From positions 1 to 23,034 of IMG/VR virus record IMGVR_UViG_3300030104_000299: a stretch of DNA of 23,034 bases; one strand, written 5' to 3'. The notes beneath the pieces are model-generated. The model did not search any database. It had not been told where the DNA came from and saw only the letters and a program-made list of their open reading frames with translations. Positions within the stretch are counted from its first letter, which is position 1. The number at the start of each line of letters is the position of its first letter. This stretch comes from a virus. The position numbers and the translations under genes were made by a program. Below, in pieces: positions 14,444 through 22,556 of this stretch.

Positions 14444-15849
14444 TATGGTCTCTCACTAAATGGGTTCTGTTCAGACCAATCAATGATCTCTTCACCAGCA
14501 ACCTCAATTTCTTGGTTGTTGTCAATAACATCGTCATCATCATAGTTGATGGTATTTAGTCTATATGCTACAGACTCACCTGTTGTCTTAGATGTACCTA
14601 CAATTATCTCACCAGGAGTGAAGTGTCCACTGAGACTCTTAATAGTTAAAGTCATAGTAGGATTGTTCCAATTAGTAACAAATGCCTTGTTATTACTAAG
14701 ACTACCAGTTATAAGATCACCACTGAAATATGTACCAACTCCTATAGTTCCAGCAGCAGACACTGTGACAGTTGGAGCAATGGCATATCCTGATCCAGCA
14801 TTAACAATACTAATAGATCCTACCTTACCATTGGCATCAAGATTAGCAAAACCTTCAGCAGTAACACCTGGTGATGGTGGAGAACTAAACGTAACAACTG
14901 GTGTTAGTACATAGTCTGAACCATGCTCAGTCATAACAACAGTGCCAACAGTTCCATTACTAACAATAGCTTGTGCTTGTGCTCCAGCACCTTCACCATC
15001 ATCAGTTATAATTTGAATAGTTGGTGGATTTGAAGAAGTAGAATAACCAGATCCAGAATCAGTTATTTGTATATCCGTTAGCGAATACTTACCATCTGAC
15101 ATCTGGGTAGTTATTGCAACAGCAGTTGCAGTATGACCTATTCCCCAGTTAGGTGGTTGTATTACTATATTTGGTGCTCTGGTATACCCTGTACCACCAG
15201 ATACTAAGTTGATTTGTGACAGACCACCGTTAACTATAGTTGAAGTAGCTTCACTTTGTGTACCTATTCCTAGCAACTGCATTGTTGCATTGTATCCTAT
15301 AGTCTCAAAGTCATCATCAATAGAACCAATACCAGTATCGATTTGCTCGTCCTCGTACTCGAAGAGTTCACATTTTAACTTATAAGTATAGTTCTTTTGT
15401 AACTGGTAGAATGATGGTTGCTCATGTTCAACATACTTAATCTCAAAAAGCATGTCTCCCAATGGGAAGTAAAGTAAATCTCCTTCCAATGGTCTAACTG
15501 GATCATTACTTAACCCAGTAACACCGCCTGTTAATAATGGAGTTATATATTCTTCAAACCTTTCTTGTGATATTATAACAGTCATCTCAGCAGTTGACCT
15601 TACACCAAACTTAGTAAGTATATTATAATTGTCTCCAAACCCTTGGTAGTTCTCAATATATCCTTCAATAGGAAATGCTTTATCAAACTTAGATGAACTA
15701 ACTTCTCTTATTATAGTTTTTGTATTCACATAGATTCTAGGCATATAGGTAAACTCTATGCCATGCATCTTAATATGTTCGTCAATCAATTCCTGAACAA
15801 GTCCTTGCTCAGACCGATTGCCTTGAGTAAAAAATGGATTTAATGCCAT
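14443..15849 (-). CDS. 14: Neck protein gp14 with an inserted repeat region
   Basis: Forms the neck with gp13 and closes the filled head for tail attachment. It has 468 residues, against 256 in T4. Residues 1-200 are the conserved gp14 part (NPFFTQGNRSEQGLVQELID, FGVRSTAEMTVIISQERFEE, EGDLLYFPLGDMLFEIKYVE). About 205-370 holds four imperfect repeats built on a GSGY-then-Pro motif, at residues 212-230, 260-281, 304-321 and 346-363, each forming a beta hairpin-like unit. The end (about 430-468) returns to a conserved-looking acidic tail with WSEQNPFSERP. It is linked to gp13 and gp15 by TAATG overlaps at both ends. Confidence 0.93.
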   Translation of the reverse strand: MALNPFFTQGNRSEQGLVQELIDEHIKMHGIEFTYMPRIYVNTKTIIREVSSSKFDKAFPIEGYIENYQGFGDNYNILTKFGVRSTAEMTVIISQERFEEYITPLLTGGVTGLSNDPVRPLEGDLLYFPLGDMLFEIKYVEHEQPSFYQLQKNYTYKLKCELFEYEDEQIDTGIGSIDDDFETIGYNATMQLLGIGTQSEATSTIVNGGLSQINLVSGGTGYTRAPNIVIQPPNWGIGHTATAVAITTQMSDGKYSLTDIQITDSGSGYSTSSNPPTIQIITDDGEGAGAQAQAIVSNGTVGTVVMTEHGSDYVLTPVVTFSSPPSPGVTAEGFANLDANGKVGSISIVNAGSGYAIAPTVTVSAAGTIGVGTYFSGDLITGSLSNNKAFVTNWNNPTMTLTIKSLSGHFTPGEIIVGTSKTTGESVAYRLNTINYDDDDVIDNNQEIEVAGEEIIDWSEQNPFSERP

Positions 15850-16697
15850 TATCCAATAGTATCCATAGCAGGTATTTCATATTCCCATGCCATTCTTTCT
15901 TCAATCTTATCTATTTCTCCTATTGCATCATCATATATTTGTCTACCATTAAGTTCTACACCACCAGGAAGTTTAACTCCTTGGAATTTAATAAGGTTCT
16001 GACCCCATTGCTTCTTCATAAGAGCAGTAAAATACTTCTTTAAGAATGGATCTCTGTACACATTAGGATAAGCATTAGGATCTAGTGCTCTATAGCATTC
16101 GATAATAATGTAGTCATCAACTTGCATACTGGAATAATCGGTATCAATATACAATCTGTTCTGTCTTCTGTTATATCTAATCTGCTTCTCAGGACGTAAT
16201 AGGAAGTTAATATCTTCCAAGAACGTTTTGGTCATAGCATAGTTAAGCATTTCAGAAGCACTAAACCAGTAAATCTCATTCAAGAATAACTGATAGTTTA
16301 CACTAAACATGTTAGTACTTATTGCCCTATTATCAATCTTCCAAACCTTGACTATACTTATAACTTGTTCTGGTATCTGAATAAAGTTTTGGTTCTCTTC
16401 ATATGAAAACGTAGTTATACCAACCTTTCCTGTTATCTGTGCTTCTGCTGTAGTCGTAGTAACACCAATAGTTTTAGATCCACCCCTTGCTTCAATGGAG
16501 TTAATAAACTCTTGGGTTACCTTATGCTTCATGTATAGTTTTTCTATACCATCAAAATGTCTATCCTGAAATAATTGGATAGCATCATCCATCAGATCTT
16601 CGATCTGTTCATCGGCAAGGTTGATCTCTAAGACAGGATAACCTAACTGCCTTTTAGCGTATTCAACTAATTCTTGTCTTGTAGACGGTTGTGCCAT
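15849..16697 (-). CDS. 13: Neck protein gp13 (head completion)
   Basis: Binds the portal after packaging and, with gp14, makes the head competent for tail joining. It has 282 residues (T4 309). It opens MAQPSTRQELVEYAKRQLG, then PVLEINLADEQIEDLMDDAI and LFQDRHFDGIEKLYMKHKVT, the standard cyanophage gp13 start. Later come QIPEQVISIVKVWKIDNRA and IIIECYRALDPNAYPNVYRD, also conserved. It shares MAQP with the next gene upstream, which is otherwise unrelated. A CATAAATA late motif lies 19-26 bases before the ATG. Confidence 0.95.
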   Translation of the reverse strand: MAQPSTRQELVEYAKRQLGYPVLEINLADEQIEDLMDDAIQLFQDRHFDGIEKLYMKHKVTQEFINSIEARGGSKTIGVTTTTAEAQITGKVGITTFSYEENQNFIQIPEQVISIVKVWKIDNRAISTNMFSVNYQLFLNEIYWFSASEMLNYAMTKTFLEDINFLLRPEKQIRYNRRQNRLYIDTDYSSMQVDDYIIIECYRALDPNAYPNVYRDPFLKKYFTALMKKQWGQNLIKFQGVKLPGGVELNGRQIYDDAIGEIDKIEERMAWEYEIPAMDTIG

Positions 16698-16715
16698 TGT
16701 TAGCCTACTTTTTTG

Positions 16716-16723
16716 TATTTATG
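16716..16723 (-). promoter_or_regulatory. Late-promoter-like CATAAATA before gp13
   Basis: The minus strand reads CATAAATA, overlapping the stop codon of the fibre-like gene and 19-26 bases before the gp13 ATG. The identical octamer precedes the fibre-like gene itself at 17995-18002. Confidence 0.5.
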
Positions 16724-17933
16724 CCCTGTACACCACATCAAGGTGATCACCCTTGTTCAAACCTTCTGTTAGTGTTATTGTGGGGGAGTTTTTAGTGAAA
16801 TCATTATTTTCTAATCTGACACCATTAACAAAAACCATTAGGTTATGCTCTTGTATGTCAACATTACTAGGTGAAAATTCAATTTGATTTTGAGTAGCAG
16901 TGAAGTAATCTTCAGCAGTCTCTGATATGATGTCAACCTCATCACCAACATTACAACCCTGTACTAGAGTTATTTTTCTAGTTATAGAAAAGTCAGTTGA
17001 TCTTAATTTGACACCATTGACATAACATTTCACATTTGTTTTGTCACCACCAGTTAGGTTAAATTCAGTTTGACCTTCTACTGATGCACCAAGCAAATCT
17101 TCTTCAAATTCATTTTGATAGAATACAGTTATCTGCACTCTGTCACCAGCATGGCATCCAGTTGTTAATGTAACTGTTCTAACTCCCGATAAAGCAAAGT
17201 CAGCAGGGGGATCATTTACAAATTGATTATCTCTTAACTTAATACCATTAAGAAATACCTGACAAGACCTAGTGCCTATGTCACCGACAAATGGATGAGG
17301 TGCATTGAATTCTACTTGAAACTCTGATGCTGTATAATATCCATCTACGTGGGTGGTTATACCAGCACCACCTCCACTTTCTATAGTTTTAAAACTTAAG
17401 TTACCATTACCATCAGTAACTAAACTTTCATTTTCAGAACCATCACTACTAGGGAATGTAAACCCTGATACTGTACATATACCTGCTGAGAAAATATTAC
17501 CATCTACATGACCTGTCAATCTTCCTGTGACATTACCTGTCACATTACCCGTTAAATCCCCTGCTAAATCACCGAAACTTAAATTTCCACTACCATCTGT
17601 CTGAAGAGTCTGTAAGGCACTCCCGTCACTTGCAGGGTATGTTAGACCACTTATGGTTGTAACACCAGTTACTTTTAAATCTCCAGTAACTGATAATGCT
17701 GCACCACAAGCCACCTTACCACTATAACTTACCAGTTCACCAACACCAGAGGTTTCTACCCATGGGTTAACTGATACAGTTGTAGTAGCAATTCCTACCG
17801 ATGACTGATCCCTAAGAATATAGACCTTACCATCATAGGTATTGATGGCAAATTCACCACGTTCTATACTACTTACTGCTGGAACCTTGCCTTCAACGGA
17901 AGACCTTTTAAACTTTAATACAGGTTGTGCCAT
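16719..17933 (-). CDS. Repeat-built fibre-like virion protein at the whisker-gene position
   Basis: Probably a trimeric fibre or whisker; T4 carries fibritin (wac) just upstream of gp13. It has 404 residues. The N-terminus KFKRSSVEGKVP...RGEFAINTYDGKVYI is a common phage fibre attachment motif. Residues ~82-120 and ~145-181 are two copies of a module containing a TVSG/TISG element, a SDGS turn and a TDG-GNLSF strand. Between them, 125-145 is a GNVTG/GRLTG/GHVDG turn repeat. Residues ~200-404 hold three copies of a domain marked by FLNGIKLR (227), YVNGVKLR (304) and FVNGVRLE (368), each ending in a GD-V strand. It resembles modular tail-fibre proteins, but the host receptor and exact location in the virion are unknown. 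Confidence 0.8.
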   Translation of the reverse strand: MAQPVLKFKRSSVEGKVPAVSSIERGEFAINTYDGKVYILRDQSSVGIATTTVSVNPWVETSGVGELVSYSGKVACGAALSVTGDLKVTGVTTISGLTYPASDGSALQTLQTDGSGNLSFGDLAGDLTGNVTGNVTGRLTGHVDGNIFSAGICTVSGFTFPSSDGSENESLVTDGNGNLSFKTIESGGGAGITTHVDGYYTASEFQVEFNAPHPFVGDIGTRSCQVFLNGIKLRDNQFVNDPPADFALSGVRTVTLTTGCHAGDRVQITVFYQNEFEEDLLGASVEGQTEFNLTGGDKTNVKCYVNGVKLRSTDFSITRKITLVQGCNVGDEVDIISETAEDYFTATQNQIEFSPSNVDIQEHNLMVFVNGVRLENNDFTKNSPTITLTEGLNKGDHLDVVYRA

Positions 17934-17941
17934 TCACAAGA

Positions 17942-17980
17942 CTCTTAAAGAAGAGGAGACATACCATCTGTAAAGACAGA
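17942..17980 (-). promoter_or_regulatory. Two matched small hairpins in the fibre-gene leader
   Basis: The untranslated leader contains two 5-base-pair hairpins (17942-17955 and 17967-17980), 25 bases apart centre to centre. Their stems differ, but both have the loop CTTT in the minus-strand RNA. Paired stem-loops with the same loop just before a start codon can be translational operators; no protein is assigned here. Confidence 0.35.
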
Positions 17981-17982
17981 CG

Positions 17983-18011
17983 TTGATATGAGATTATTTA
18001 TGTGTTATAAT
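17983..18011 (+). promoter_or_regulatory. Sigma-70 promoter driving the pebS cassette
   Basis: TTGATA (17983-17988), a 17-base spacer, then TATAAT (18006-18011) preceded by TG at the extended -10 position. Five of six -35 bases and all -10 bases match the bacterial consensus, with ideal spacing. Transcription should begin near 18018. It points to expression by unmodified host polymerase, i.e. early in infection. Confidence 0.8.
17995..18002 (-). promoter_or_regulatory. Late-promoter-like CATAAATA of the fibre gene, inside the early promoter
   Basis: The minus-strand octamer CATAAATA lies wholly within the spacer of the plus-strand sigma-70 promoter, 62-69 bases before the fibre start. The identical octamer precedes gp13. 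Both promoters cannot be occupied together. Confidence 0.55.
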
Positions 18012-18034
18012 TAGTAGTGTATATAATCAATACC

Positions 18035-18739
18035 TTGAAAAAATTAGTTATTTTGACTGGACCTCAGGGGTCTGGAAATCATTTGTGGTCAAAAGTTTTC
18101 TCATTACACGAAGATGTATTCGGTTGGAAGACCTTACTTGATAACTATTGGGAAGCACATAGGTTAACAGAACCATTTGCAGCACACTGGAGAGATCCCA
18201 GTACACTAAAGGATTTTGATTGGTCGCAGAGTGAATATTTCTTTACCAGTATCAGTGTCCCACTAGGTATAGAATCTAAAGGTACTAAGTGGTCACCTAA
18301 TATTATGCAGTTTGCTATGAATGCAGAACTGTGTGGAATAGAGACTAAAATATGCGTTATAGGAAGAGATCAAAATATACTAAATCATCAGCAGCAAAGA
18401 ATACGTGAAGAAAATACTTGCAGACATTTCCTAGATCAGTTACCTAACTTAGAAAATCCTACATTCTTAAGTTATGAATTGTTATATCTTTACAAAGCAG
18501 AGTACCTTAAGACTCTTGACTTAGGTATTCCTATAGCATGGTATGATGAAAGATTAACTGAAATATTAAAATTTGATGCTAATAGTAAATACATTTCTCC
18601 AGTAGAACCACAACCACTAGATGATGGTAATAAGACAGCAGTACCATTCCCAAGTAACCCTGTAAATAAGGAGGAGTATGAGAAAGGAATACGTGGAGAT
18701 TACTTAGACTGCTGTGATGATAAACCATGCCATTGTTAG
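18035..18739 (+). CDS. P-loop protein A, sulfotransferase-like, first gene of the pebS cassette
   Basis: No ATG exists before the P-loop. The frame opens with GTG at 18017, but the predicted transcript starts near 18018, so I choose TTG at 18035, which also aligns with the start of paralog B. The product is 234 residues. It begins KKLVILTGPQGSGNHLW, a nucleotide-binding loop at 8-16 in which the usual Walker lysine is Asn15. FSLHEDVFGW, LLDNYW and EPFAAHW follow, then GRDQNI (110-115) with QQQR, resembling the 3'-phosphate-binding Arg region of sulfotransferases. The tail is odd: DYLDCCDDKPCHC carries four cysteines and a histidine, possibly binding metal. Activity is unknown; sulfotransferase-like is inferred from motif shape. 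Confidence 0.75.
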   Translation: MKKLVILTGPQGSGNHLWSKVFSLHEDVFGWKTLLDNYWEAHRLTEPFAAHWRDPSTLKDFDWSQSEYFFTSISVPLGIESKGTKWSPNIMQFAMNAELCGIETKICVIGRDQNILNHQQQRIREENTCRHFLDQLPNLENPTFLSYELLYLYKAEYLKTLDLGIPIAWYDERLTEILKFDANSKYISPVEPQPLDDGNKTAVPFPSNPVNKEEYEKGIRGDYLDCCDDKPCHC

Positions 18740-18740
18740 C

Positions 18741-20112
<1,372 letters not shown>

Positions 20113-20116
<4 letters not shown>

Positions 20117-20787
20117 CCAACTTCAGCAATTGCTGTGTTCTTAGCAGAAATCTCAGCAAGGTCGATTCTCATTTGAGCAACCATGTCAAGAATGCGGCTC
20201 TGAAGTTCAGAAGCACCTTCTACTAGAGTAGCAAGCTTACGTCCACCTAAAGCAGAGTGGAAACCTTCGTCTCTACCGATTGTAGCATATCTGTGTGAGA
20301 TATAAGTATCTTCAACACATTCAGCCATTTCTTGCCAAACAGCTTCAGCTCTTCCTTCTGCAACCAACTGGTAAGCAGCAAGTGCAGCTTCGTCTGTAGA
20401 AGCAGAATACTTCTCAAGAAGTGAAGCACCTTTAGCTTGTGGGTTAGCAGCGTCAGCAGCGAATGCAGCTTCAACATCTACAGGTGATCCTGTGATGTGC
20501 TCGATAACTTCCTTAACCATACGGAAGTGCTTAGCTTCGTCTTGTGCTTGCTTTGAAAGAAGCTCAAGATCCTGTACACTATGTGTAGAAGGAGTTGAAG
20601 AAGCAACTTCAGCAGCGATAGCCTTCATGTTCTGAGCTTCATTAACCATACGGCCAGTGAAGTGCTCTACAAGGTACTCATCGCTAGGCTTTGATGCAAA
20701 GAAGTTACGTACGTTTTCACGTGATGAATCAAAAAGAGACTTATTCTCTTCTTTGATCTTCTTTACGAACTCTTGTCCTGATAACAT
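20113..20787 (-). CDS. Ferritin-like diiron protein
   Basis: A 224-residue, nearly all-helical protein. The four-helix diiron signature is present: Glu50 in helix 1, Glu84-x-x-His87 (DEAKH) in helix 2, Glu144 or Glu148 in helix 3, and Glu174-x-x-His177 (DEGFH) in helix 4. This fits oxygen-activating or iron-oxidising proteins of the ferritin/rubrerythrin superfamily; the substrate cannot be read from sequence. It is not a heme oxygenase, since the proximal-His region is absent. A good GGAG site lies about 9 bases before the ATG, and the leader carries a perfect palindrome and a CTAAATA motif, suggesting late, high expression. It converges tail to tail with the pebS cassette, the stops sharing TTAG with no terminator between. 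Confidence 0.72.
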
Positions 20788-20803
20788 TTGTTTTTACTCC
20801 GTG

Positions 20804-20817
20804 TGTTTTATAAAACA
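20804..20817. promoter_or_regulatory. 14-base perfect palindrome in the ferritin-like gene leader
   Basis: TGTTTTATAAAACA reads the same on both strands and lies between the CTAAATA motif and the ribosome-binding site. Perfect palindromes of this size often bind a dimeric regulator, but AT-rich sequence can form them by chance. Confidence 0.4.
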
Positions 20818-20838
20818 GGGGATGTAGTATCTACGCTA

Positions 20839-21357
20839 TTATTTAGTAAAAACAAAATAATACCGTAAATGACCGTGAATGGTGTATTCCTTTTCAAAGC
20901 GGTCTACGTTATATTTATATTGTTTTGCAATTTCATATACCTTTTCCTTATTCCATGGATACCAAACAACTCCATCTATGTGTGACTTGTCTACCCATGT
21001 ATGTGTTAGACCAGGATTGACTCTGAAGATACATTCCTTCATCCATATACTATCTAATATTTCTATTTGATGATCTATAGTTTCTTCGTCACCAAAGTTA
21101 ATAGAACCTAAACATAAAGCAATATCTACCATAGGACCATCATATCCTTCGATAGAACACTTAACATCAGCAGCATCGTTGTATGGATCTATACCCCAAA
21201 GGTGATCTATTTTGCCTTTGAATTTATTAAATCCACACCCAACATCTAATACCCTAGTAGGTTTTTTAGCATTAACATAATCGACCAACTGATAGCCAGA
21301 ATACTTAAGAGATTTAAAATCTTGGTCTTGCCAAACTCCATTAAAATACGAATCCAT
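20839..21357 (-). CDS. Small SAM-dependent methyltransferase-like protein
   Basis: 172 residues from ATG 21357; a GTG 12 bases upstream is less likely because the ATG forms TAATG with the previous stop. It has the class I methyltransferase signature: VLDVGCGFN (36-44, SAM-binding loop), WGIDPYNDA (54-62, acidic ribose-binding region) and VDIALCLGSINF (78-89, motif III/IV region). The family includes enzymes acting on small molecules, sugars and proteins, so the substrate is open. Coupling to the sulfotransferase upstream suggests a shared target, perhaps a glycan or surface polymer. Confidence 0.72.
   Translation of the reverse strand: MDSYFNGVWQDQDFKSLKYSGYQLVDYVNAKKPTRVLDVGCGFNKFKGKIDHLWGIDPYNDAADVKCSIEGYDGPMVDIALCLGSINFGDEETIDHQIEILDSIWMKECIFRVNPGLTHTWVDKSHIDGVVWYPWNKEKVYEIAKQYKYNVDRFEKEYTIHGHLRYYFVFTK
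20840..20846 (-). promoter_or_regulatory. Late-promoter-like CTAAATA before the ferritin-like gene
   Basis: The minus strand reads CTAAATA across the stop codon of the methyltransferase, 53-59 bases before the ferritin-like ATG. Confidence 0.4.
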
Positions 21358-22556
21358 TAGGTGTGCCACTTATTATTGTTTAACATATCTACAGCTTCAT
21401 CAGACGTAGGTATGCATCCTGGATCAATTCTCATGATCTCTTCAAGTGCTTTTGAAGTTTCTTCTTCAGTCATTTCATTTAACTTAGGAACTTTAACTGT
21501 GTCCATAGTCATCCATGATTCAGGTATAGAACCAAACACACGTTCCCACTCAGTATATGCCTCATCCATTATACATCTAGCTACTTGTTGTTGCTGATGG
21601 CTTAGATCTACTTGGTCACTCATCCACTGGTCTGACAGATTTGGAAGTTTAGGTGCTCTAGATCCCATCTCAGGAACGTAAACATTTGGAAACATATCAT
21701 CTATCTTATATCCTATAAAATCTGATAGTTTCTCCATTGCTTCTTTACCACCCCATTTGTCACCATTACGTTCCCATAGTTCTTCCATCACTGTCATATG
21801 GACATTCTCTTCACCAAACGCTTCACACCATCTCCTATAACCTTCTGTATATAAAGTTATAACATCCATCTCATGACCACATAAATGTGTATTCTTACCC
21901 AATAAACATTGCCAATATAAATGCCAAGGATCCTGACATCCACCACGTTTCTTTCTTTGGAACCATCTAAATTGATTCTTAGACCATGCCCTTCTAACAG
22001 GATCCCTACATGTTATAATTATCTTAACATTAAAAATTTCCCTTACTTGATCTGCAAAGAGTTTTACAAAGTCTTCTGGTAAGTAAATGTTATTAACTGT
22101 AAAGTCTGATACTGCGTGGTATTCCCCATTTTCAACTACATTCTCATGATGAAGTTTATAATAATTAATATATTTTTGAAATGTATGTGGTTGTGAGAAG
22201 AATTTATCAGTATATTCTCTAGTCCAATGCTCATTAGCACCTGATGTATACATCACCTGTGATGGTCTATCTCTTAAACCAAACTCCATAAATTTTTCAT
22301 TATCTGGATCATCACGGAAGGTCTCATGCATTACCCTACGAAATGTTACCTTCTTCTTATCTAAAGTGTAATAATCTTTAATATTATAATGAAATATGTG
22401 CTCTAGATATTTGTTTTCTTTTAAATGCCCACAATGACAATATCTATTCCAATCTCCTAAAGTGTAATACAGTGGACTTGTACCACTCCAACCTGTCCCA
22501 ATACACATGAACAATGTTGGTTTATTTTTCAGATTGATTTTGTACTTGGTTCCCAT
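21357..22556 (-). CDS. Sulfotransferase-family protein
   Basis: 399 residues. LFMCIGTGWSGTSPLYYTLG (15-34) is a 5'-phosphosulfate-binding loop of the sulfotransferase family, and ITCRDPVRRAWSKNQFRW (181-198) gives the matching 3'-phosphate-binding Arg and Ser. Such enzymes transfer sulfate from PAPS to sugars, lipids or proteins. The last ~150 residues (from VMEELWERNGDKWGG) are repeated in the neighbouring gene. It is followed by the methyltransferase with a 1-base TAATG overlap. The acceptor is unknown; surface or virion glycan modification is a guess. Confidence 0.82.
   Translation of the reverse strand: MGTKYKINLKNKPTLFMCIGTGWSGTSPLYYTLGDWNRYCHCGHLKENKYLEHIFHYNIKDYYTLDKKKVTFRRVMHETFRDDPDNEKFMEFGLRDRPSQVMYTSGANEHWTREYTDKFFSQPHTFQKYINYYKLHHENVVENGEYHAVSDFTVNNIYLPEDFVKLFADQVREIFNVKIIITCRDPVRRAWSKNQFRWFQRKKRGGCQDPWHLYWQCLLGKNTHLCGHEMDVITLYTEGYRRWCEAFGEENVHMTVMEELWERNGDKWGGKEAMEKLSDFIGYKIDDMFPNVYVPEMGSRAPKLPNLSDQWMSDQVDLSHQQQQVARCIMDEAYTEWERVFGSIPESWMTMDTVKVPKLNEMTEEETSKALEEIMRIDPGCIPTSDEAVDMLNNNKWHT

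Follow-up and report, generated by a model that had tools for sequence, protein, structure and literature searches.

Overlapping divergent promoters are known from E. coli and Salmonella (Warman, Grainger; PMC12825309, PMC10268837). The sigma70 -10 elements of these bidirectional promoters share bases by symmetry, their starts lie 7-25 bp apart, binding of one polymerase blocks the other, and one side can be repressed when the opposite side is strongly activated. T4-like phages offer a second precedent: RB49 and S-PM2 have overlapping promoters in which an early element of sigma70 type and a late one of NATAAATA type precede the same gene, and middle-type expression is thought to result (PMC2984593). 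NATAAATA is the published late promoter of cyanomyoviruses, whose early promoters are poorly defined experimentally (sigma70-like motifs in S-PM2 and Syn9, not in S-RSM4), and how T4-like cyanophages control their early and middle transcription has been described as unclear (PMC2984593). T4-type late promoters carry the octamer TATAAATA and depend on gp55/gp33/gp45; CTAAATA is the variant of phage Aeh1 (PMC1524935). Structured RNAs (manA, wcaG, and PhotoRC-II) have been found in the 5' leaders of cyanophage transcripts (PMC2864571).

The locus compared here lies in a window of 23,034 nucleotides (the whole stretch of DNA analysed, IMG/VR record IMGVR_UViG_3300030104_000299) from a family of ocean viruses infecting cyanobacteria. 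Positions 17983-18011 of its plus strand read TTGATATGAGATTATTTATGTGTTATAAT. An earlier note had described this box as TTGATA-17-TGT-TATAAT with a minus-strand octamer in the spacer, and the letters of the window confirm this: the minus-strand CATAAATA is wholly contained within the 17-nt spacer between TTGATA and TATAAT (Table 1). Early and late promoters of opposite direction thus probably share about 17 bases of DNA. Among 52 sigma70-type sites in the 20 kb scanned, the plus-strand site ranks first and is the sole 11/12 match with TG.

The box resembles the E. coli and Salmonella promoters in being an overlapping divergent pair, and in mutual blocking and repression if the exclusion that we infer here is counted; it differs in having two distinct -10 elements, predicted to be of an early and a late sigma type, and about 29 bp between the predicted starts. 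It shares with RB49 and S-PM2 the combination of early and late elements in a T4-like phage, but its promoters are divergent and face different genes. With the T4-type and Aeh1 late promoters it has in common the octamer, the position before a late structural gene and the A/C degeneracy; the octamer here, however, lies within the spacer of an early promoter that faces the other way.

Table 1. Positions of the promoter elements, RNA hairpins and neighbouring genes in the window.
Feature	Position	Strand	Basis or remark
-35-like hexamer TTGATA, predicted early promoter	17983..17988	+	sequence match
Extended -10 TGT-TATAAT, predicted early sigma70 promoter	18003..18011	+	TGT 18003-18005, TATAAT 18006-18011; predicted start near 18018
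Late promoter octamer CATAAATA	17995..18002 (read 18002-17995)	-	predicted start near 17989
HP1, near 5' end of late fibre transcript	17965..17982	-	CGUCUGU-CUUU-ACAGAUG
HP2, before fibre start codon	17942..17955	-	CUCUU-CUUU-AAGAG
Tail fibre-type gene, late, leftward from box	16719..17933	-	PHROG 17885 tail fiber protein, N-terminal match
First early-cassette gene, P-loop protein	18035..18739	+	80 relatives; probable start codon TTG at 18035
pebS, passenger in cassette	18853..19494	+	PF05996, PHROG 7278
Paralogue of first cassette gene	19469..20116	+	same family in relatives by tblastn

With a probability of roughly 0.7, the box is read as two real divergent promoters of distinct sigma dependence in one box of about 17 bases, where strong late initiation reduces the remaining early initiation per DNA copy. 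The box thus probably does consist of two real divergent promoters. On the plus strand, an early promoter for host sigma70 (SigA-type) would drive a short P-loop cassette, which in some phages includes pebS; on the minus strand, a gp55-type late promoter would drive the tail-fibre gene, with a transcript opening in a two-hairpin leader. The predicted starts, placed about 7 nt (plus strand) and 6 nt (minus strand) from the -10 elements, would lie head to head about 29 bp apart. With the footprints known for bacterial RNA polymerase, two complexes would overlap almost completely; given this start spacing and the nearly abutting -10 regions, two polymerases should be unable to sit on the box together. 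Provided that both promoters are real, they are therefore likely to exclude each other on one DNA copy. Because T4-like phages activate their late transcription strongly, a one-way handover from early to late transcription is plausible, and strong late initiation would lower any remaining early initiation on the same DNA copy. Sigma use, start sites, and timing at the box are, like the exclusion, deduced. If the exclusion is real, the box would be a cis switch between early genes and late virion genes that needs no dedicated repressor, and the early/late handover in T4-like cyanophages would proceed via promoter overlap.

The earlier note's account of the genes on either side holds in part. 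The fibre-type gene has an N-terminus of the kind common to the fibre genes behind the leaders scanned below. It is followed on the minus strand by genes for gp13, the gp14 neck protein, the tail sheath stabilizer, and the small and large terminase; further minus-strand genes encode tail sheath, portal, scaffold, and major capsid (PHROGs). Several of these genes are preceded by a late heptamer of their own, 19-36 nt from the start codon. The neck gene gp13 has its heptamer at 16716-16722, and hence the fibre gene is the main one served by the box. The minus-strand genes that the earlier note expected to switch on late are late structural genes by their PHROGs.

The plus-strand genes had been named a pebS cassette, which was not borne out: pebS was found in 7 of the 81 records searched, some of them truncated (loci including L001, L002, L003, L005, L007, and L030), and is therefore regarded as a passenger, the paralogous P-loop pair being the more constant part. 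In many relatives the paralogue follows directly after the first cassette gene (tblastn), and pebS has apparently been inserted between the two; a small ORF lies between the first P-loop gene and pebS. The first cassette protein is weakly sulfotransferase- or kinase-like in its AlphaFold2 model (pLDDT 81; top fold match a sulfotransferase, E 6.7e-4, TM 0.43), and it gave no Pfam, PHROG, or NCBIfam family and no PDB sequence match. A tblastn search with its gene returned no match in 50,697 phage records, so that the cassette was not found in any cultured phage. Minus-strand genes resume to the right of the cassette; the gene at 20116-20787 (minus strand) adjoins the cassette in 42 of the 81 records, and that at 21360-22556 (minus strand) looks sulfotransferase-like by eye only.

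For the late element, heptamers were counted in the 50 nt immediately preceding the gene starts of P-SSM2, Syn9, P-TIM68, Bellamy, and S-PM2. ATAAATA and CTAAATA occurred 124 and 52 times in sense against 8 and 4 times in antisense orientation, and GTAAATA and TTAAATA were far less enriched. The box has one mark of a T4-like late promoter, an [A/C]TAAATA heptamer upstream of a late structural gene. A homologue of the late co-activator gp33 was found in the 121-kb relative G001 (E 5.6e-29), with no match in the 23-kb window fragment or in the other fragments searched. S-PM2 (NC_006820) carries an overlapping TATTTATAAT without TG at 135146-135155, and at 135234-135247 the sequence TGCTATAATAAATA, in which an early -10 overlaps a late heptamer of the same orientation.

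The early element is probably an extended -10 in the main, supplemented by a weak -35, as judged from its sequence in relatives. In six cyanomyovirus genomes, the 50 nt preceding gene starts contain TGNTATAAT 38 times in sense and 7 times in antisense orientation. The canonical TTGATA is restricted to the window (L001) and L002 among the junctions of relatives. The mean match to TTGACA is nevertheless best at a spacer of 17 (at least 4/6 in 19 of 35 clusters, against 8 of 35 for the next best spacers); the hexamers at this spacing vary by clade (TATACA, TGTACA, CTGTCA, TTGTTG, TTGATA), are weak matches, and often overlap an arm of HP1. Two clades have the heptamer at distances from the -10 that differ by 2 nt, yet each keeps its weak -35 at 17 nt from the -10; this fits separate elements, the late one being placed independently of the early geometry.

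Relatives were collected by a homology search with the first plus-strand protein, which yielded 80 IMG/VR loci. The close group, which includes the window and spans 62-100% protein identity, comprised 53 distinct upstream regions, reduced to 35 non-redundant junction clusters with flank identity under 85%. Both TATTTA[T/G] (minus strand [A/C]TAAATA) and TGNTATAAT were present in 53/53 of these homology-selected junctions, so that the joint conservation predicted in the earlier note for related phages was found. The left gene was divergent in 52 of the 53 and lost at the contig end in the remaining one, where a short minus-strand ORF is visible. Across the 35 clusters the columns of TATTTA and TG-TATAAT were invariant and were followed directly by T in every case, and flanking columns were mostly below 1 bit. 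TGNTATAAT was unchanged in 35/35 except for the N of TGN, which takes all four bases, and position 7 of the heptamer varied only between T and G, that is, between ATAAATA and CTAAATA on the minus strand. Two remote homologues with a divergent left gene (L073, L074) have the late heptamer and lack the extended -10, which speaks against the reading as two promoters. Matches to the pattern at non-divergent positions were obtained in L084, L087, L111, L113, and L119; L084 and L087 resemble unrelated phages by eye, and the L084 box abuts a terminator T-run.

The 53 junctions share ancestry, so this conservation partly reflects descent, which bears on the most serious alternative. Both promoters may be real and their overlap passive: a single insertion of the cassette behind the fibre gene would have left a compact divergent junction, the cassette would be silenced by the loss of sigma70 transcription, and the overlap would add no measurable regulation. 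This has somewhat less than an even chance of being correct. A general loss of sigma70 transcription would indeed also silence the cassette, so that the overlap could be redundant, and all junctions look descended from one arrangement. Nor does basal transcription give competition at the E. coli bidirectional promoters tested, at which it is too low (PMC12825309). At the same promoters, however, one direction is repressed once the other is substantially activated (PMC12825309), and the fibre leaders of L061, L062, L065, L066, and L115, which at 127-133 nt offer room to separate the promoters, still have them interlocked.

The reading as two promoters is also addressed by the occurrence of each element without the other. 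A scan for fibre leaders was made without reference to the early box and, pooled with the other loci, gave at least 103 distinct leaders. Among the matches listed, an opposing extended -10 was present in 37; the other 66 comprised 65 without an opposing ATTATA and one with the hexamer alone. By a crude ORF test, a codirectional ORF precedes 63 of the 65 among the matches listed, and 7 of the listed leaders with the extended -10 also show an open codirectional frame. In P-SSM2, the tail-fibre gene PSSM2_293 comes after a codirectional HNH gene; it has the late promoter and leader and lacks an opposing -10. Conversely, five remote homologues of the plus-strand gene (48-51% identity), each preceded by a codirectional gene, show TTGACA and a -10-like hexamer but lack a late heptamer, and in the 121-kb relative TATTTA is missing from three other TGNTATAAT sites located 21-25 nt upstream of a gene. 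Elements found apart in other contexts indicate that the box joins two elements where fibre gene and cassette diverge, rather than being one composite signal. The gene before codirectional fibre genes (L213, L221, L226, L253, L287) often ends like the HNH endonuclease gene preceding the P-SSM2 fibre gene, which suggests a mobile gene adjoining fibre genes.

These data make it improbable that TATTTAT is an accessory part of the plus-strand early promoter instead of a late promoter. The heptamer does always stand beside the extended -10 at the junction, even in the L061-type clade, whose leader is different. It also occurs, however, before codirectional fibre genes that lack an opposing -10, is absent from the other near-gene TGNTATAAT sites of the 121-kb relative, and is missing in the remote codirectional homologues; moreover, its spacing to the -10 is variable and its sole variation is the late degeneracy. 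The composite was likewise rejected as a general plus-strand early element: it was absent from five complete cyanomyovirus genomes at gaps of 0-12 nt and from ten at gaps of 1-8 nt. Divergent junctions are few in five cultured genomes, and none of them has TATTTA followed by TGNTATAAT within 12 nt. Of ten relatives, six contain the composite once per contig; the remaining four, as far as checked, belong to a clade with a 0-gap variant unmatchable by the pattern used.

Very unlikely, too, is a single symmetric sigma70 bidirectional promoter that makes both transcripts. Near-symmetric -10 bidirectional promoters are common in bacteria, with starts most often 18 bp apart (PMC10268837, PMC12825309); the predicted spacing in the box is wider than their range, and the minus-strand element fits the late consensus. 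An opposing (minus-strand) extended -10 was found near the box in 0/35 non-redundant junctions, and a plus-strand late heptamer likewise in none of the 35.

A chance arrangement of AT-rich motifs, to which the number of ATAAATA copies in the window would conform (8 observed, 8.1 expected), is contradicted by conservation of the motifs in all 35 clusters, by absence of the composite from five complete genomes at every gap tested, and by 2000 dinucleotide-preserving shuffles of the window, only 0.7% of which contained TTGA[T/C]A-(16-18)-TATAAT with TGN and 0.45% the composite TATTTA[G/T]-(0-8)-TGNTATAAT. All eight ATAAATA copies lie on the minus strand, which also carries the late genes, and besides the box copy five lie 19-36 nt upstream of minus-strand genes.

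The fibre leader downstream of the late octamer was analysed for RNA structure. Both hairpins have four-base loops with U as the last base and a closing U-A pair, and the counterparts of HP2 in relatives read GGTANATACC, GCTYTTTAGC, or TCGCTACATAGCGA. HP1 was aligned by its loop, as a whole-leader MAFFT alignment misplaced it. In 44 distinct junction sequences it was 98.1% paired with two-sided changes at 5/6 pairs, and its covariation score was reached by 0/500 shuffles; in 58 distinct leaders without an opposing -10 (among the matches listed) it was 97.1% paired with two-sided changes at 4/6 pairs. Because the stem was used to choose the junction segments, and because GTNNNTAC and HP2 were fixed in the leader scan, the innermost pairs are uninformative and the outer pairs constitute the evidence. 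G-U pairs in the sense of the late transcript fit an RNA structure in that transcript.

The order of late heptamer, two hairpins, and tail-fibre start codon recurs in at least about 100 distinct leaders, including many of L202-L310. In five genomes the two-hairpin signature occurred once at a late heptamer (P-SSM2, NC_006883, 214815-214874) and never beside control heptamers. We tentatively propose, at odds slightly below even, that the leader is a widespread cis-acting RNA of cyanophage tail-fibre genes which stabilises or times the fibre mRNA, and whose DNA in this family overlaps the weak -35 of the opposing early promoter. It may be a more novel part of the locus than the box itself, and would provide a handle on tail-fibre gene expression. 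Like manA, wcaG, and PhotoRC-II it is a structured RNA in a cyanophage 5' leader; unlike these, its hairpins are smaller, stand before tail-fibre genes, and have no gathering-level Rfam match in the five sources scanned. In window positions 15000-21000, Rfam returned only two weak, unrelated matches (E up to 1). In L045, L052, L112, and L122 a two-hairpin leader also precedes a second fibre paralogue. The fibre leaders of L061, L062, L065, L066, and L115 contain a hairpin and T-run shortly before the start codon that are terminator- or attenuator-like.
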